From IMG/VR virus record IMGVR_UViG_3300025162_000103, positions 1 through 37,702 of that record: 37,702 nucleotides of DNA; one strand, 5' to 3'. Source of the DNA: a virus. This document shows, piece by piece, positions 5,797 through 36,228 of this stretch. A program made the translations under genes and the position numbers. The notes beneath the pieces were generated by a model. It did not search any database and was not told the origin of the DNA. It saw only the letters and a list, made by a program, of their open reading frames with translations. Position 1 is the first letter of the stretch; every line of letters begins with the position of its first letter.

Positions 5797-7158
5797 ATGT
5801 CAGTCGATAAAATTTTAGAAAAAGTGGATGCCATTGAGGCATCAAATTTGGCCAAGATCGAGGAAGTAAAAACCCAAACTCTGGCCAAGGTCGAGGAAAT
5901 TTCAGTTGCAACAACAGAGAAATTGGCAGCCATCGAGGCCAAAATTTCTGAAATCAACACAGCTCCATCCATTATCAAGCCAGCGAAAACCATCAAAGGC
6001 GATGTGAATAAGATGGTGCGTGAGCAGCTCAAGCATTTTGCCAAAAAAGGCAAAATGGAAAAAGAATTGAAATTGTTTGAGTCTGATGACCAGTACCAAG
6101 CATATTTGCGTGAAAGTTCATCTTTGACTGGTGGCGGCTACAATGTCGGTGGTCGGACTGCTTATGATCCAGTATTCCACACATTGCGTTTGATTAACCC
6201 CATGCGTGGTTTGTCCAGAAACGTGACCACTGAAGGTTCAACTTATCAGTTCAGAGCAAAAGTCGGCAATGCTGGTGCAACTTGGGGCTATTCCATTCAA
6301 AACAATGGTTCAGCAACAACTGAAGCGACCAACATTTGGCAATTGGTTTTGCAAGACTTGAATGTGCAATTTCCAATTCGTACCGCAGCACTCGATGACA
6401 TCGATGGTCTAGAGGCCAATGTTGTTGATGATATGTTGATGGAATTCAGCCAGGTCGAGGGTCAATCCATGATCCAAAACAATGACCAGACTGACAGCCC
6501 CAACACATATGGTGGCACTCAAGGTTTGCGTGGTTTAAATCAGTATGCAAATGCTGGTGCAGCCAGCACATATGCTGGTGGATCAATCACCACTGGCGCA
6601 TTCGGCACATCAGGTATTGCAACTAGCAACGGATTGAATTCTCTGGCTGTTTATGATCAATTGACTACCAACAGCAACACTGTCGGTGCTGCCAATGTGA
6701 CATATACCGATGTGGTCAATTTCATCTACGCATTGCCACAACAATACTGGACTCCAAGCGCAAAATTCTTGGTCAATCCATTCATGTTGTCTCAAATACG
6801 CGGCTTGAAAGACTCCAACGGAACACCAATTTTCGAGCGTATGCACCCTTTGAACGATGGCCCAGGCACCGGCATTGTGGGCACAATGCTTGGATTTGAT
6901 GTGGTGGTCAATAAGTATTTGGACAATCCATCACAAACAACCACAGCATCAGCTGGCACATTGAACAAGTTCCCAATGTATTTTGGTGACTGGCAACGTG
7001 GCCACACGATCGTTGATCGTTTGAATATGATTTTACGCAGATACGATCAGACATTGCCTGGCTACATTACGTTTTTCGGTGAGAAGCGTTTGGCAGCATC
7101 CAATGTCGATCCATTGAGTATTATTGCCTATCGTTCAACAGCGACAGCTGCAAACTAA
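5797..7158 (+). CDS. Major capsid protein, HK97 fold, with N-terminal coiled coil
   Basis: A 453-residue capsid protein with ribosome site AAGGAA. Residues 1-55 form a strongly heptad-like coiled coil (EKVDAIEASNLAKIEEV and on), followed by a linker to about 105. This is typical of the delta/scaffold domain removed by the protease. From about 105 comes the HK97 core, starting with TGGGYNVGGR (111-120) and including the TYGGTQGLRGLN segment and a C-terminal YDQTLPGYITFFGEKR strand. A strong hairpin terminator follows 4 bases after the stop. The next gene is a paralogue of the core only. Confidence 0.93.
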   Translation: MSVDKILEKVDAIEASNLAKIEEVKTQTLAKVEEISVATTEKLAAIEAKISEINTAPSIIKPAKTIKGDVNKMVREQLKHFAKKGKMEKELKLFESDDQYQAYLRESSSLTGGGYNVGGRTAYDPVFHTLRLINPMRGLSRNVTTEGSTYQFRAKVGNAGATWGYSIQNNGSATTEATNIWQLVLQDLNVQFPIRTAALDDIDGLEANVVDDMLMEFSQVEGQSMIQNNDQTDSPNTYGGTQGLRGLNQYANAGAASTYAGGSITTGAFGTSGIATSNGLNSLAVYDQLTTNSNTVGAANVTYTDVVNFIYALPQQYWTPSAKFLVNPFMLSQIRGLKDSNGTPIFERMHPLNDGPGTGIVGTMLGFDVVVNKYLDNPSQTTTASAGTLNKFPMYFGDWQRGHTIVDRLNMILRRYDQTLPGYITFFGEKRLAASNVDPLSIIAYRSTATAAN

Positions 7159-7191: not shown

Positions 7192-7217
7192 ATCATTAAA
7201 ATTTTTTGGGATTATTT

Positions 7218-8249
7218 ATGAGCACCAACATTATTCTTGAGGCCATCCACAAATCACTGGTTAAGCAAAAACGAGTGACTGTTAATTTAAAAGAGGCATC
7301 GGCACTCACTGGCTCAGGAAGTAATGTCGGTGGTCGTGTTATTTATGATGATGCGTTTGCATCATTGCGTTTGGCCAATCCTATTCGTGCAGCTGGCGCA
7401 AGAGTGATCCAAACGATTGGATCGGATGAGGCGTTTGTCGTTAAAACTGGTAATGTGACCAATCCGACAAACCCATGGGGCTATACATTCACACCCAACG
7501 TGGGAACACCCAATACAGCCACATCATTTTGGCAATTGCCAGTGAGAGTGGTTTCTGCTCAGGTACCAGTTAGGACAGCAGTTTTGAGTGACATTAATGC
7601 ACTCAATGAAACCATCATTTCTGATGTCGGTTTGGAATTTTCCCAGCAAGAGGCATTGTCAATGATGCTGAACAATGACCAAGCTGGATCGACCACCACA
7701 ACTTATGGCGGCACTCAGGGATTGCGTGGGTTGAATTACTACACATCATCAGGATCAGCAGCTGCATTTGGATCAAATGGATCGGCCATCACCAATGGCA
7801 TCCATACAGTGCTGACAGTGGCATCCACCACTGGCGGTGCAATCGTTTATAACGACATTGCTGCACTCAATGCTGCATTGCCACCCCAATACTACAATAT
7901 GCCATCCACTTGCTGGATGATGCACCCCAACACCATTGCTTATTTGCGTGAGCTGAAAGACTCAGGCGGTTTGCCACTATTTCTCGAGATTGGTGACAAA
8001 GACGGCTATTCAGTCGGCAATATTTTTGGCCACCGAGTGATTCCCAATCCATTCATGGATCAAATTGGATCGAGTAAGCTGCCGATCTATTTGGGAGCAT
8101 GGGAATTATTTGTCACCATTGCCGATAATGAAGAAATGTCATTCCAGTGGTTTGATCAAACAACCCCAGGCTCAATGGTGTTGTATGCTGAAAAGCGTGT
8201 TTGCAGCACAATTCGTGACGTATATGCTGGCGTAAGACTTTCAACATAA
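7218..8249 (+). CDS. Second HK97-type capsid protein (paralogue without delta domain)
   Basis: A 343-residue protein from ATG 7218; an in-frame TTG at 7206 is possible but less likely. It aligns by eye with the upstream capsid protein over its whole core: TGSGSNVGGR (31-40) against TGGGYNVGGR (111-120), the FWQLPVRVVSAQVPVRTAVL segment, NNDQ followed by TYGGTQGLRGLN, and WFDQTTPGSMVLYAEKR near the end. It lacks the about 80-residue N-terminal coiled coil. Such a paralogue could be a vertex or minor capsid protein, like T4 gp24 beside gp23, or a mixed-lattice subunit. That role is inference. A terminator upstream suggests a lower dose. Confidence 0.85.
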   Translation: MSTNIILEAIHKSLVKQKRVTVNLKEASALTGSGSNVGGRVIYDDAFASLRLANPIRAAGARVIQTIGSDEAFVVKTGNVTNPTNPWGYTFTPNVGTPNTATSFWQLPVRVVSAQVPVRTAVLSDINALNETIISDVGLEFSQQEALSMMLNNDQAGSTTTTYGGTQGLRGLNYYTSSGSAAAFGSNGSAITNGIHTVLTVASTTGGAIVYNDIAALNAALPPQYYNMPSTCWMMHPNTIAYLRELKDSGGLPLFLEIGDKDGYSVGNIFGHRVIPNPFMDQIGSSKLPIYLGAWELFVTIADNEEMSFQWFDQTTPGSMVLYAEKRVCSTIRDVYAGVRLST

Positions 8250-19442: not shown

Positions 19443-21305
19443 ATGGGAACAAAAGTCACAGTCTTAAATGACAATAATGTCAGCATTAATGTCACTCCAC
19501 CAGCCAATCAAACCATTCTGGTAAACCGATCAGCATTCGGTATTTCTGGTTTTTCTGGCCAGTCTGGCTACAGTGGCCAATCAGGGTTCAGCGGCCAGGC
19601 TGGTGGCTTGAGTGGATATTCAGGATACTCTGGATATAGTGGAAAATCTGGCTACAGTGGGATTTCGGGCTATAGCGGTGCAATTGGAACATCAGGCACA
19701 TCAGGATATTCTGGCCAGTCTGGATTCAGCGGATCGGGCACATCAGGATATTCAGGGTTCAGCGGATACTCTGGATCAGGAATTTCTGGATTTTCAGGAT
19801 TTAGCGGTGCAGTCGGTGCATCAGGCATTTCGGGATATTCTGGATTCAGTGGAATTGGCACCAGTGGATTCAGTGGCTACAGCGGAATTTCTGGATTCAG
19901 TGGCCAGTCTGGTTTTAGCGGGTCAGGATTTTCTGGTTATTCTGGATTCTCTGGTGCCCAAGGCACCTCGGGATTTAGCGGGATTTCTGGATTCAGTGGC
20001 CAAGTCGGTGCCAGTGGATTTAGTGGATTCAGCGGTGCTACAGGAGCCAATGGAGCATCAGGCACATCAGGATATAGTGGCTATTCAGGATCAGGCATTT
20101 CGGGTTATAGCGGGTTTTCTGGTACCAGTGGCCAGCAAGGTACATCGATCAATATCAAAGGCACAGTGGCCACACCAGCTGCATTGCCAGCCACTGGAAA
20201 CAATGTCAATGATGCCTATATCGTTTCATCGAATGGCGATCTATATGTTTGGTCTGGGACAGTTTGGAATAATGTCGGCCAAATAGTTGGCCCAGCTGGA
20301 GCATCAGGCACATCAGGGTATAGTGGATATTCTGGATCAGGCATTTCTGGATATTCAGGATTCAGTGGGATTTCTGGATTCAGTGGATCAGGCATTTCGG
20401 GATATTCAGGATTCTCTGGTGCAGTCGGTTCGTCTGGCATTTCAGGATATTCAGGATTCAGTGGATATTCTGGATCGGGAATTTCAGGATATTCTGGATT
20501 CAGTGGATATTCTGGTTCAGGATTGTCAGGGTATTCTGGATTCTCTGGTGCCCAGGGCACATCGGGATTTAGCGGCATTTCTGGATTTAGCGGCATTTCT
20601 GGATTCAGCGGATCAGGCGTGTCTGGATTTTCAGGATTCAGTGGGTATTCTGGATCGGGAATTTCAGGATATTCTGGATTCAGTGGATATTCTGGTTCAG
20701 GATTGTCAGGGTATTCAGGATCAGGTGTATCTGGATATTCAGGATTTAGCGGTATTTCTGGCTGGTCTGGATTTTCAGGAATAAGCGGATATTCTGGTTT
20801 GGGATATTCTGGGCTCACTGGATCAGGATCAAATACATTAGGACTTGGCAGCAAATCATTCACAACAAATTTGGATGCAAGTGCAACTGCCTTTGCAGTT
20901 GGCCAATATGTCAGAGTGTATGCCACTTCTGTTCCCAGTCAGTTTATGGAAGGCTTGATCACATCTTTTTCAGGCACTTCATTGACAGTCAATATGACTT
21001 ATGTAGTTGGTACTGCATCTTTCAGCAGCTGGTCAATCACTTTATCTGGTGCAGTTGGTACATCAGGATATTCAGGATCAGGGATCAGTGGATATTCAGG
21101 CTATAGTGGATCAGGGATCAGTGGATATTCGGGCTATAGTGGATCAGGCATCAGCGGTTATTCAGGATATTCAGGATCAGGGATCAGTGGATATTCGGGC
21201 TATAGCGGATCAGGGGTTTCAGGTTTCAGCGGTTATTCAGGATATTCTGGAGCTGGATCGACTGGGACTGGCGGCTCTGCATTTGCATGGTTCATTTCAA
21301 GATAA
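19443..21305 (+). CDS. Repeat-rich tail fibre, Gly-aromatic-Ser triplets
   Basis: A 620-residue protein made mostly of collagen-like G-x-y triplets, but with Tyr, Phe or Ile at x and Ser at y and almost no proline, for example GYSGFSGYSGSGISGYSGFS. The repeats occupy about 31-230, 285-457 and 535-610. Two non-repeat inserts break them: about 231-285 (IKGTVATPAALPATGNNVND, DLYVWSGTVWNNVG), a module known in phage fibres, and about 458-534, a small beta domain. The N-terminus (VTVLNDNNVSINVTPPANQT) is the likely attachment part. It probably forms a long shaft. Confidence 0.7.
   Translation: MGTKVTVLNDNNVSINVTPPANQTILVNRSAFGISGFSGQSGYSGQSGFSGQAGGLSGYSGYSGYSGKSGYSGISGYSGAIGTSGTSGYSGQSGFSGSGTSGYSGFSGYSGSGISGFSGFSGAVGASGISGYSGFSGIGTSGFSGYSGISGFSGQSGFSGSGFSGYSGFSGAQGTSGFSGISGFSGQVGASGFSGFSGATGANGASGTSGYSGYSGSGISGYSGFSGTSGQQGTSINIKGTVATPAALPATGNNVNDAYIVSSNGDLYVWSGTVWNNVGQIVGPAGASGTSGYSGYSGSGISGYSGFSGISGFSGSGISGYSGFSGAVGSSGISGYSGFSGYSGSGISGYSGFSGYSGSGLSGYSGFSGAQGTSGFSGISGFSGISGFSGSGVSGFSGFSGYSGSGISGYSGFSGYSGSGLSGYSGSGVSGYSGFSGISGWSGFSGISGYSGLGYSGLTGSGSNTLGLGSKSFTTNLDASATAFAVGQYVRVYATSVPSQFMEGLITSFSGTSLTVNMTYVVGTASFSSWSITLSGAVGTSGYSGSGISGYSGYSGSGISGYSGYSGSGISGYSGYSGSGISGYSGYSGSGVSGFSGYSGYSGAGSTGTGGSAFAWFISR
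19536..20134 (+). repeat. Tandem degenerate repeat, first fibre block
   Basis: Degenerate repeat of 9-18 bases built from GGATATTCTGGATTCAGTGG-like words and coding for GYSGFSG. It is in frame throughout. Similar blocks lie at 20300-20815, 21046-21258 and 21678-21870, and a short one at 17692-17775. Such repeats can expand or contract by recombination. Confidence 0.85.
20300..20815 (+). repeat. Tandem degenerate repeat, second fibre block
   Basis: The same GYSGFSG coding repeat as at 19536. Near-identical longer units occur, for example the TATTCTGGATCGGGAATTTC word at about 20468 and again at about 20648, which suggests recent duplication within the gene. Confidence 0.85.
21046..21258 (+). 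repeat. Tandem repeat, third fibre block
   Basis: This block codes for repeated SGYSGYSGSGI units. The roughly 39-base unit containing GGATCAGGGATCAGTGGATA is repeated several times with few changes, so it is the most homogeneous of the blocks. Confidence 0.8.
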
Positions 21306-26784: not shown

Positions 26785-27218
26785 TCATTATTAGTCCATA
26801 TTCAAAAAAACTAATGAATGGGAACCCCAATCCAAAGAATTACCCATATTGGCCAGAATTGATCAATCAGCTCAAGGAGCCAATCATCCAGATCGGCATC
26901 GAGGGCGAGGCGCAGCTGGTGGACGATTTCAGGCCAAATCTACCCATGGCAGAATTGATCAAATTGCTGCACAGCTGCACAACATGGATTTCATGCGATT
27001 CATTTTTCCAGCACTTGGCTTGGCTCGAGAACAAACCTGGCATTGTTTTGTGGTCAGTATCAGACCCATTGATATTTGGCCATCCAGAGAATATCAATTT
27101 ATTGAAAGATCGAGCAAATCTGGCCAAAGATCAATTTCTCTGGTGGGAAGATCAGGAATACCAAAAAGACGCATTTATCCACCCAAATGAGGTTATCAAA
27201 AACTTAAAATTGCTCTAA
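26781..27218 (+). CDS. GT9-like glycosyltransferase fragment (C-terminal half)
   Basis: A 145-residue protein from ATG 26781, overlapping the GT2 stop by four bases. The pattern MAELIKLLHSCTTWISCDSF, then FQHLAWLENKPGIVLWSVSD and PLIFGHPENINLL matches the nucleotide-sugar-binding half of GT9 heptosyltransferases (D-S-G-x-x-H-L-A-x region). The N-terminal half of a normal GT9 enzyme is missing here but a GLGD segment is at the end of the preceding gene. It may therefore act only together with that protein. Confidence 0.6.
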   Translation: MIIISPYSKKLMNGNPNPKNYPYWPELINQLKEPIIQIGIEGEAQLVDDFRPNLPMAELIKLLHSCTTWISCDSFFQHLAWLENKPGIVLWSVSDPLIFGHPENINLLKDRANLAKDQFLWWEDQEYQKDAFIHPNEVIKNLKLL

Positions 27219-29002: not shown

Positions 29003-29122
29003 TTAAAGATTGTATTTAATCTTGGCCCATTTGGTTTGATATTCCACCATGGTCGATGGTGGGACAAACCCGAATCGTTTCCAAGTATTCATCACATTTG
29101 TAAATTCTGATTTTATATACAT
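29003..29122 (-). CDS. Very small protein, minus strand, unknown
   Basis: A 39-residue frame (MYIKSEFVNVMNTWKRFGFV, then PPSTMVEYQTKWAKIKYNL) whose ATG overlaps the HTH gene stop by 10 bases and whose stop lies two bases before the next ATG. The Trp/Tyr/Lys-rich content with a helix at each end looks like a folded or nucleic-acid-binding peptide. No family is recognised. A longer frame in another phase (29016-29237) looks like a shadow. Confidence 0.5.
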   Translation of the reverse strand: MYIKSEFTNVMNTWKRFGFVPPSTMVEYQTKWAKIKYNL

Positions 29123-29313
29123 GATTGATTCTCCAAGTACCCAGCCAAATCTCTGGTATCCACAAACACTTTGATGCCATCTTTGAAAGTCTTGAATGGC
29201 AGATCGGAAGACGATCGTTTGTTGTACAAAGTGCCAACAGGCACTTTAAGCACTTCAGATGCCTCTTTGAGTGTCATTCGGACACCATATTTTTCAATTA
29301 GGTACTGATACAT
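29113..29313 (-). CDS. Small helix-turn-helix DNA-binding protein
   Basis: A 66-residue protein with MTLKEASEVLKVPVGTLYNK (13-32), a MerR/excisionase-type HTH (HTH_17), followed by the wing KDGIKVFVDTRDLAGYLE. Such proteins act as excisionases, small transcription factors or Cro-like switches. With no integrase in the window, a transcription-factor role for the neighbouring divergent promoters is more likely than excision. It overlaps the preceding minus-strand gene by 20 bases. Confidence 0.75.
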   Translation of the reverse strand: MYQYLIEKYGVRMTLKEASEVLKVPVGTLYNKRSSSDLPFKTFKDGIKVFVDTRDLAGYLENQSCI

Positions 29314-32159: not shown

Positions 32160-32404
32160 CGCATGAAGAAGCAAGAAAACTGATGTTTGAGGTTTTCATC
32201 TTGAACAGAATGCCCAAAGAGGTATTGATGGCAGTTCTTGAGGCACTCAAGACTCATTATTTCAGCAAGGGATTTGAATGGGGATTTTGTGCCAGTCTTG
32301 AGGGCTGGAATGGCGAATATCCATTTTATGATAAAAACCTTGATCCAAAACTCGATGACCAATACCAAGCCATTCTCAAAGATGGATTGGGTGATACACC
32401 ATGA
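32156..32404 (+). CDS. Hypothetical early protein
   Basis: An 82-residue protein, first half helical (EEARKLMFEVFILNRMPKEV), second half aromatic-rich (HYFSKGFEWGFCASLEGWNG) and ending acidic. It is coupled to both neighbours by four-base overlaps. No family recognised. Confidence 0.6.
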   Translation: MTHEEARKLMFEVFILNRMPKEVLMAVLEALKTHYFSKGFEWGFCASLEGWNGEYPFYDKNLDPKLDDQYQAILKDGLGDTP

Positions 32405-32577
32405 GTGGCGGTGCAAGGGCTGGTTCTGGCCGTAAACGAGCCAACATCGATGGCAACCGAGTCCTCAAACTCAGGGCCGATGGTGTATCCATTCGGGAGA
32501 TTGCTGCTCGATTCAAAGTCACAGCAGCCACCATCCAATATTTTTTAAACAAACACAAAGAGGAAAATCCAAAATGA
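32401..32577 (+). CDS. Small resolvase-type HTH protein
   Basis: A 58-residue frame. A basic Gly-rich N-terminus (MSGGARAGSGRKR) precedes VLKLRADGVSIREIAARFKV and TAATIQYFLNKH, which match the Hin/resolvase HTH_7 recognition fold. Four-base overlaps couple it to both neighbours. It should bind DNA; its target is not known. The GARAGSGRK opening also resembles the start of phage terminase small subunits, but there is no room for the rest. Confidence 0.65.
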   Translation: MSGGARAGSGRKRANIDGNRVLKLRADGVSIREIAARFKVTAATIQYFLNKHKEENPK

Positions 32578-33807: not shown

Positions 33808-35859
33808 ATGGCAAATACAATTGTAAGCGAAACCGACTCCAAATTTCCATTTTGGTGGCAATTAAAAGAATTCCCGATTTTTTGTGGATTCACCGACATG
33901 AAACGGCCAGTCGGCATCGATGGCGTGATGGGCATTGCCGAGGCTGCCACTACTGGCCGACTCGGCACCTACGACCAAGCCAAGGCCATCAAACACCCAT
34001 ATGTGGGTTTGTCACTGCTCCATCCATTTGAGATCAAGCCAGATCAATACCTGGTGTGCATCGATCTGGACTGGAAGAATGCAACCGATTACCAGCCACA
34101 CACCCAGCAGCTGCAATTGATGACATATCTAAACAAATGCGGTGCAGCATACGAGACATCATTGTCTGGCCATGGTGCCCACTATTGGGTGACCATACCC
34201 AAAGACAAAATACCCAAGTGCATCACATTGCCCGAAAACCGACAAATCGAGTTTTTCAGTGGATTTTCTGGCCAGAAAAAAAACATACTGCTGACCGACT
34301 GGGACTTCACTGGTGAATTGAAAGAGGTCAATGTTATGGATTATTTGCCATCCAATTCCAAAGTCGATGATGCCAAATTATTATTAAATTGCATCGATGC
34401 CGAGGATTATCAGGAATGGATTTCGGTGGGCATGATACTCAAAAAGGAATTATCTGATTTGGGTTATGAATTGTGGGATCAGTGGTCAAGAAAATCAAAT
34501 AAATATGATCCATTTATTATGTCCCAGAAATGGGATTCATTTAAAAAGGAAGATGGAATCGGAATTAAGCAATTAATCCGATTATCTAAAAAATATGGGT
34601 TTCAAGGCCAAATTAATAGTTTTAATAATCCTGATGAAGATTTTAATATTCATTCAACTGATATTTTATTTCCAGATATTATTGATCCTGAGACTGGCGA
34701 GGTTTTGGTCAAGGATATTTGGGAAGGCCGAATAATCGAGCCAATGACTGTTTTGACCAGTCCAAATTGGGTGATCGATGGTTTTATGGCCGATGGTCTG
34801 ACACTGATTGCTGGGGCCCCAGGCGTGGGCAAGACCAGCGCCATTGTGCCATTGGCCATGCAAGTGGCGGGTTTTTACAGCCATTTCTCAAACATCAGCA
34901 TCAAGATCAGGCGCAAAGTGATCTATTTGTCAGAGGATACAGGCCAAGTGCAGCGGATTCAGTATGCGCTGCAAAAGCGTTTAAAGCGCACAGAGGCCGA
35001 TTTGCCGATTGAATGGCCAGAGATATCAGAATGGTTCAAAGTCGTGGCCACCAAGCGATCCAGTGCCTCGGATATAGCAAAACTGGCAATTTTGGCAGCC
35101 AAGAATATAAGCCAATTCCCAGACATCACCGGCCAGCTGGTGGACATCAAGCCATTGATTGTGATCGATACGGCCAGTGCATCATTCAATGTGGATTCTG
35201 AAAACGACAATGCTGAGATTGCCAAGTACATTTCAGCGATTAAAGAGGGTCTGATTGCCCGCGGGTACCCAGTTTGGGTGGTGACCCATACTCCTAAAGC
35301 ACTTAAACGAGCAGATGTCAGGGATTTCAGTGCCAGGGGTGCTGGTGCCTGGGAGGGCGATGCCAATTGCGTGGCTTATTTATTCCAGGAGGAGGGACTA
35401 GAGGAGCGATTCCTAAAGCTGGGGAAACATCGATATCAGTCGGATTTTGATGAGGTGGCATTTGAGTCCAACCTATATGTTGAGTTTGTCACCGACCAGC
35501 TGCGAGGTGCAATTGAGATTTCGGTGCGTTGGGCCATCCCATCCAAGTCGATGGAGAGTAAGCGCATCGAGGCCAAGGAAATGGCCAAAGAGGAGAAATT
35601 TGAGAATTTGAAGAATTCACGCAAAACCGAAATACTCGATGTCATCCAGTCCGAAATCAATGCTGGCCGATATCCAAACAAGCGATCGATCAGGAATTTG
35701 ATCAAAGGCCGAACAGAGGAAATCATGGCCATCATCGATGATTTGATTGAGGCTGGATCAATCATGGAAATTGATTTGCCAGATGATTTAAAAGTGGGCA
35801 ATAAGAAGACTTCATTGGTTCCCAATTATCGGGAACCATTAGAAAACCCATTTAAGTGA
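33808..35859 (+). CDS. Primase-polymerase / AAA helicase fusion
   Basis: A 683-residue protein. N-terminal prim-pol-like domain: CIDLDW with Asp86 and Asp88, SGHGAHYW at 120-127 and QIEFFSGFSG-x-ILLTDWDF near 146-167 fit archaeo-eukaryotic primase motifs. Residues 186-265 match PriCT-2 (YQEWISVGMILKKEL, WDQWSRKSNKYD). The ATPase is RepA/AAA_25-like, with GAPGVGKTS at 336-344 and LIVIDTA at 450-456. The C-terminus (600-660) is a winged-helix-like segment. It should prime and unwind phage DNA. Ribosome site AGGA. The last codons overlap the iteron cluster. Confidence 0.85.
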   Translation: MANTIVSETDSKFPFWWQLKEFPIFCGFTDMKRPVGIDGVMGIAEAATTGRLGTYDQAKAIKHPYVGLSLLHPFEIKPDQYLVCIDLDWKNATDYQPHTQQLQLMTYLNKCGAAYETSLSGHGAHYWVTIPKDKIPKCITLPENRQIEFFSGFSGQKKNILLTDWDFTGELKEVNVMDYLPSNSKVDDAKLLLNCIDAEDYQEWISVGMILKKELSDLGYELWDQWSRKSNKYDPFIMSQKWDSFKKEDGIGIKQLIRLSKKYGFQGQINSFNNPDEDFNIHSTDILFPDIIDPETGEVLVKDIWEGRIIEPMTVLTSPNWVIDGFMADGLTLIAGAPGVGKTSAIVPLAMQVAGFYSHFSNISIKIRRKVIYLSEDTGQVQRIQYALQKRLKRTEADLPIEWPEISEWFKVVATKRSSASDIAKLAILAAKNISQFPDITGQLVDIKPLIVIDTASASFNVDSENDNAEIAKYISAIKEGLIARGYPVWVVTHTPKALKRADVRDFSARGAGAWEGDANCVAYLFQEEGLEERFLKLGKHRYQSDFDEVAFESNLYVEFVTDQLRGAIEISVRWAIPSKSMESKRIEAKEMAKEEKFENLKNSRKTEILDVIQSEINAGRYPNKRSIRNLIKGRTEEIMAIIDDLIEAGSIMEIDLPDDLKVGNKKTSLVPNYREPLENPFK

Positions 35860-35993
35860 AAAGCATTCATTTTAAATGGTTCCCGATGTAATGGTTCCCC
35901 TAAGGAAAAAAGACTGGGAACCATTGGTGCTTGTAACACCAATGGTATCGGTTCCTGAAAACTGGGAACCATTGGGAACCATTGGGAACCATT
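35814..35993 (+). repeat. Iteron-like cluster of 10-bp repeats (GGGAACCATT) with perfect hairpin
   Basis: At least eight copies of GGGAACCATT or its complement occur in 180 bases: 35814 (variant, minus), 35831 (plus), 35875 (minus), 35890 (minus), 35916 (plus) and three directly abutting copies at 35964-35993. A degenerate copy lies near 35941-35955. A perfect inverted repeat ACCATTGGTG / CACCAATGGT (35920-35929 with 35937-35946, seven-base loop) is embedded. This looks like an origin or operator array bound by a phage replication or regulatory protein. It is the main feature of the 153-base gap between two early genes. Confidence 0.7.
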
Positions 35994-36012
35994 AGTAATA
36001 AAGGATTAGGAA

Positions 36013-36228
36013 ATGGATAAAGTTGATTTATTGAATGATCCAAGATTTGTCGATGATGATCGGATTTTTTGTGATGAATGCCAGCATTTGGGGCCATTGA
36101 ATTGGCAATCCAAATGCTTGGTTGGCCAGACTTATTTGCTTGGAATCAAAAACAGATGCACAATTTATATACAGAAAAAACCAAAGTCAGAAAAATTTTG
36201 GGACACTCAGGAGAAATTTTGGGAATAA
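36013..36228 (+). CDS. Hypothetical small Cys-containing protein
   Basis: A 71-residue protein, MDKVDLLNDPRFVDDDRIFC at its start, then DECQHLGPLNWQSKCLVG. Cys20, Cys23, Cys34 and Cys49 could bind one metal. The ATG follows GGATTAGG, a weak ribosome site. The end overlaps the VRR-NUC gene. No family is recognised; a DNA-binding accessory of the nuclease is possible. Confidence 0.55.
   Translation: MDKVDLLNDPRFVDDDRIFCDECQHLGPLNWQSKCLVGQTYLLGIKNRCTIYIQKKPKSEKFWDTQEKFWE

Follow-up and report, generated by a model that had tools for sequence, protein, structure and literature searches.

Introduction

DnaA boxes are common at iteron-type origins, but not universal. The iterons can lie inside the initiator gene itself, as they do at ori-lambda, within the O gene of phage lambda. 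In other systems the gene comes first and the origin follows. In the PICI/SaPI islands (SaPIbov1, EcCICFT073) and in SCCmec Cch2, the origin lies directly 3' of the rep gene or of a fused pri-rep gene (PMC6092414, PMC7581432). In the PICI/SaPI origin an AT-rich stretch is flanked by short iterons in two sets, the iterons are read by the C-terminal domain of Rep, and the gene-then-iteron order drives replication (PMC6092414, PMC7581432). The oriV of RSF1010 (IncQ) contains iterons and ssi hairpins, and is served by a helicase of the RepA fold, a primase and an iteron binder, which cooperate (PMC4234260). In pRN1 ORF904 and in Bordetella phage BIP-1/BPP-1 a prim-pol, an SF3 helicase and a winged helix are combined, with a stem-loop just 3' of the rep gene that is conserved in shape while its sequence changes; and alpha of satellite phage P4 unites in a single polypeptide a Toprim primase, a helicase and a C-terminal winged helix that binds iterons (PMC4234260).

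The window spans an entire virus record (37,702 bases). Here we describe a repeat array in it that begins in the last codons of a primase-helicase gene. We consider that this array is very probably the replication origin of a small freshwater phage, recognised by the C-terminal domain of the phage's own primase-helicase.

Results

Genome context

Genes for terminase, portal, capsid, tail and lysis are present in the window, together with a replication block of SSB (on the minus strand), SNF2-type helicase, exonuclease, primase-helicase, VRR-NUC and HNH. None of the annotated proteins searched, a set that lacks some of the small ORFs, was recognised as a DNA polymerase. The right ends of the window (37702, ...AACAAG) and of G001 and G005 coincide, and the left starts of the window and G001 are alike. 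Because these ends coincide in different phages, the window probably represents the complete genome, linear and fixed at its ends.

Some other features of the genome deserve mention. A ParB-like domain fused to a DNA methyltransferase is encoded at the left genome end (61-1263). The neighbouring genes 5797-7158 and 7206-8249 each have a match in phrog_10, a family of major head proteins, and are possibly capsid paralogues. At about 20441-20738 a collagen-like tail fibre gene contains nine copies of ATCCTGAA (or its complement), which is a coding repeat.

The repeat array

Seven perfect copies of GGGAACCATT and one copy with a single mismatch are found within 35814-35993 (Table 1). There are no perfect copies elsewhere in the window, and even the core GGGAACC occurs only once outside the array, at 26820. 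The seven copies in 200 bp compare with at most two in 100 shuffles that preserved the local base composition. The sequence-only reading had described such a cluster, with three abutting sites and a perfect 10-bp inverted repeat, starting within the last codons of the primase-helicase, and all of these features are indeed present: the first two copies lie inside the gene, and the array ends 134 nt past its stop codon. The same reading depended on the 10-mer not being scattered over the genome. It is not, and in a 36.8-kb relative all eight of the repeat copies are likewise located in the array.

Table 1 Features of the primase-helicase gene and the adjoining array (positions in the window)
Feature	Position	Strand	Remarks
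Primase-helicase, 683 aa, proposed initiator	33808..35859	+	prim-pol-like N-terminus, PriCT_2, RSF1010-RepA-like AAA_25 helicase, C-terminal probable winged helix
Codons of putative C-terminal DNA-binding domain (residues about 600-672)	35605..35823	+	proposed repeat reader
Iteron S1, GGGAACCAAT	35814..35823	-	one mismatch; inside codons S-L-V-P; retains relatives' letter
Iteron S2, GGGAACCATT	35831..35840	+	inside codons; retained in L007 despite frame shift there
AT-rich spacer, candidate melting region	35841..35874		74% AT, 95.6th percentile of genome
Iteron S3	35875..35884	-	perfect GGGAACCATT
Iteron S4	35890..35899	-	perfect GGGAACCATT
Conserved tract CTAAGGAAAAAA, S4-S5 interval	35900..35915		relatives' counterpart TTTCCTTTG
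Iteron S5	35916..35925	+	perfect GGGAACCATT; overlaps hairpin left arm
Hairpin	35920..35946		arms 35920-35929/35937-35946, 10-bp perfect stem, 7-nt loop
Degenerate iteron S6, GGAACCGAT	about 35949-35957	-	ninth copy, directly past hairpin
Iterons S7-S9, three abutting	35964..35993	+	perfect GGGAACCATT, starts 35964, 35974, 35984

Two sets of iterons, S1/S2 and S3/S4, flank the AT-rich spacer, whose length of 34 bp is constant across all near lineages while its sequence varies. The window's own array contains no DnaA box. The hairpin was considered as a terminator and rejected, neither strand having a terminator-like site. It is worth adding that the gene following the array (36013-36228) encodes a 71-aa protein with a CxxC pair, zinc-ribbon-like and with no family match, which adjoins the array in near relatives too. 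GC skew, which the sequence-only reading had offered as a check, has its detrended minimum at 34,311; this agrees weakly with an origin at the array, the skew being slight and tracking gene content.

Conservation in the near clade

The near clade comprises 11 contigs, with primase-helicases 78-88% identical, and two more array-bearing contigs. The array was retained in every close relative whose contig spans the region; its loss there would, on the sequence-only reading, have counted against an origin or operator. The order and orientation of the sites are the same, and the spacing is nearly so (S2-S3 44, S3-S4 15, S7-S8-S9 10 and 10). The repeat unit of the near clade reads GGGAACCAAT. When the window is compared with L007, none of the 72 iteron letters differ once position 9 is set aside, against 40 of the 99 spacer letters (Fisher p 6e-12). 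Position 9 itself (AAT/ATT) shows a concerted change in seven of the eight copies, the exception being S1, which lies in codons where the same change would give Leu -> Met. In L007 the final codons of the primase-helicase are frame-shifted (SLVPNLSGTNGF) and the iteron there is intact, which argues that the constraint acts on the DNA and not on the peptide. Clustered, near-identical short repeats, direct and inverted and conserved as DNA, are what characterises an iteron-type origin, and all of this is found here.

The hairpin has a 12-bp stem in both L004 and L007, with compensatory changes. Pairing is thus retained with altered letters, the left arms reading ACCATTGGTG, ACCAATAGTGCT and ACCAATAGTACC.

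An exact DNA search of viral contigs with the window's own 20-mer gave no match, because the relatives use CAAT; the CAAT version of the 20-mer matched 11 loci. A nucleotide search in phage records gave no match, a prophage scan of genomes found no relative, and an exonuclease-based search for intermediate relatives returned close ones only.

The same layout with different repeat words

A wider family of well over a hundred contigs was gathered using MW202879 and the SNF2 helicase as queries. MW202879 is the only annotated full-length-like relative, and is 27% identical. An array was counted where a 9-mer recurs five times or more, with up to one mismatch per copy, within 320 bp around the stop codon. 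It is present at 86 of 93 non-redundant primase-helicase loci, compared to 1 of 186 control stretches, with five to nine copies per array. The units are specific to the lineage: TAAACCGGTA, TAAAGCGGTA, TAATGCGGTA, TAATACGGAA, TCGAGGATAC, TCGACCGGAC, CAACGGGTAC and TTGAGGGGAC.

In the plan common to the relatives, a first cluster of three or four copies in direct orientation, stepped by 8-11 bp, and one inverted copy is followed by a hairpin, beyond which lies a second cluster interrupted by TTTCCTTTG. In our own reading, the window follows the same plan, given a reversal of the whole block relative to the gene. Most lineages have the hairpin at about +60 to +126, with differing sequence. Perfect DnaA boxes (TTATCCACA) occupy fixed positions in the array, often over the hairpin, in nearly all MW202879-like relatives; there are none in the arrays of the window's clade or of L146, L147 and L171.

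Several family B loci have an extra single iteron in the coding sequence of the next gene, about +288 to +301 past the primase stop. In the isolated phages VLCpiS13b, phiHSIC, pYD21-A, Arya and Persinger, which have a PriCT_2 match only, no such array lies directly behind the primase. Behind the PriCT_2/Toprim/DUF5906 primase of Pseudomonas phage PG1 there is an array of TGTGTCGGGTT (L200:6222-6551). Its sites, TGTGT[CT]GGGTT, occur in both orientations in a 330-bp gap: this is the same idea with a different enzyme.

The primase-helicase

Pfam identifies PriCT_2 and AAA_25 in the primase-helicase, and there is no Toprim match. A deeper structure model was built from 60 sequences, for which the top Foldseek match is the NrS-1 prim-pol. 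The best fold match of the middle region is RSF1010 RepA (Z 17.7, rmsd 2.8, 208 residues). Residues 600-672 are predicted to form a helix-helix-helix-strand-strand arrangement, with a pLDDT of about 80 in the first model, which was poor overall, and low confidence in the deeper model. A fold search with the first model gave no meaningful match for this C-terminal domain, and a sequence search of solved structures gave nothing useful. On the basis of the predicted secondary structure, a helix-turn-helix-wing pattern, residues about 600-672 are a probable winged helix. The primase-helicase chain therefore seems to unite three jobs that in RSF1010 are split among RepB', RepA and RepC.

Repeat type follows the C-terminal domain

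Association between repeat and protein was analysed in 52 family-B loci, which are relatives outside the window's own clade. Columns of the C-terminal domain show a perfect association with repeat letter 5. This letter changes once on the domain's own tree, compared to three times on the tree of the remaining protein, and for letter 10 the corresponding numbers are one and four. Letter 6 is matched by no protein column, and letters 5-6 change 12 times even on the C-terminal tree; because letter 6 varies freely, and is often mixed inside a single array, it is probably not strictly read. In L079 and L162 the helicase belongs to one group, and the C-terminus and array to another, so that both resemble natural chimeras.

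Along the DNA, the association with repeat type is 1.0 in the C-terminal codons and the array. It is about 0.8 across the helicase part, back to -1150, with background values farther upstream, and on the downstream side it is at background beyond about +350. The C-terminal domain and the array adjoin on the DNA, and hitch-hiking could explain part of the linkage. However, the association is one-sided, with the downstream side unlinked at equal distance, a pattern that mere adjacency would not produce. The sequence-only reading had listed the primase-helicase, SSB and the small HTH/RHH proteins as possible binders; these patterns of inheritance point to the primase-helicase itself. We propose, from the co-inheritance and the perfect association in relatives, that the C-terminal domain of the primase-helicase recognises the iterons.

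Discussion

Comparison with described systems

The window resembles the PICI/SaPI systems in that a probable origin lies directly 3' of a putative initiator gene, as is also the case at the 86 family loci, and in that two iteron sets flank an AT-rich stretch, with two clusters in the relatives. The helicases of PICI and SCC elements are of the SF3/AAA+ type, whereas that of the window is RepA/DnaB-like (AAA_25). The window is moreover an autonomous tailed phage with its own terminase, portal, capsid and tail, not a satellite island, and in most of its relatives the array includes a hairpin as well as DnaA boxes.

The match to the RepA fold suggests a likeness to RSF1010. There, however, RepA, RepB' and RepC are separate proteins and the iterons are 20-bp, while here a single chain is accompanied by iterons of 10-11 bp (10 bp in the window). 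With pRN1 and BPP-1 the window shares a prim-pol, a helicase and a probable winged helix, as well as a hairpin of variable sequence past the gene; those systems have an SF3 helicase and a 100-nt stem-loop with no iterons, in place of the RepA/DnaB-like helicase, 10-12-bp hairpin and iterons seen here. P4 alpha and its ori/crr sites are similar in placing primase, helicase and a (here putative) C-terminal iteron binder in a single chain, but P4 alpha combines Toprim with an SF3 helicase, and the window a prim-pol-like fold with AAA_25. As with lambda O, the first iterons lie inside the putative initiator gene, although O has neither helicase nor primase.

Origin or another kind of site

The sequence-only reading had left the choice between origin and operator open. 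An operator bound by a small HTH regulator (the genome encodes two such proteins, for example 32401-32577 or 29113-29313) would control the downstream nuclease and packaging genes, and both the position of the array, directly upstream of the gene at 36013, and its inverted and direct 10-bp sites would suit a repressor. However, no sigma-70-like promoter or terminator was found in 35700-36200, the other gene starts have no site, including the divergent SSB/SNF2 gap, and the downstream gene shows no link with repeat type. The DnaA boxes in relatives' arrays, the hairpin that changes in sequence, and the joint inheritance of repeat type and C-terminal domain favour an origin. These features of the wider family, together with the conservation of the array in near relatives, support the origin half of the earlier proposal, and we regard the operator half as improbable. 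The array may nevertheless exert autoregulation on top of its origin function.

The NrS-1 prim-pol starts at an 8-nt motif (PMC8718748), and the N-terminus of the primase-helicase resembles this enzyme. The repeats might serve the prim-pol domain as single-strand priming signals, the part played by TTTGGTTA for NrS-1 polymerase, rather than as double-strand sites for an initiator domain, and TGGTT is indeed common to AATGGTTCCC and the NrS-1 motif. This is very unlikely, given that repeat type tracks the C-terminal domain, and that NrS-1 has two sites, one per strand (PMC7102993), as against eight or nine clustered copies with conserved spacing here. It is likewise very unlikely that the array serves packaging or partition (as a pac, cos or centromere-like site): clustered short direct and inverted repeats do look like parC-type sites, and the genome encodes a ParB-domain protein, but that domain forms a fusion with a methyltransferase, the annotated genes show no ParA, and the genome ends common to the window, G001 and G005 lie 1.7 kb off.

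A model for initiation

We therefore return to the array as an origin. Taking PICI/SaPI Rep, SCCmec Cch2 and P4 alpha as models (PMC6092414, PMC7581432, PMC4234260), we suggest that iteron binding, opening of AT-rich DNA, helicase loading and priming would take place at the array, and that replication would start there. The probable C-terminal winged helix would bind the 10-bp iterons (the abutting S7-S9, S1/S2, S3/S4 and S5), and so bring several protomers together along what is roughly a single face of the DNA. This would strain the 34-bp AT-rich stretch between S2 and S3, or extrude the hairpin, or both. The RepA-like helicase ring could then load onto the opened strand, and the N-terminal prim-pol domain would prime. 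The hairpin could act as an extruded cruciform or as a single-strand priming site, in the latter case perhaps a preferred start comparable to the ssi hairpins of RSF1010. The annotated genes showed no DNA polymerase, and we therefore propose that the host replisome extends the primers. The DnaA boxes, which are at the same place in most relatives, suggest that host DnaA assists there, while the window's clade would manage without them.

Implications

In these free-living tailed phages a probable origin of the PICI-like kind, rep first and iterons after, accompanies a helicase of the RepA type, and the proposed reader and its word visibly co-evolve. A large group of free tailed phages has the rep-then-iteron layout with a different helicase class. 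It is tempting, if doubtful, to go further and regard the helicase end, the C-terminal DNA-binding domain and the iterons as an interchangeable origin-specificity cassette, with concerted diversification and recombination swaps giving many incompatible replicon types per lineage, and with selection for divergence. If this were true, divergence of the cassette might keep co-infecting phages from interfering with one another, or protect them from being captured by satellites. The dozens of natural protein/iteron pairs, together with the chimeras, form a data set on how the specificity of an initiator and its origin change jointly; and since DnaA boxes are present or lost within one layout, dependence on the host initiator becomes testable.
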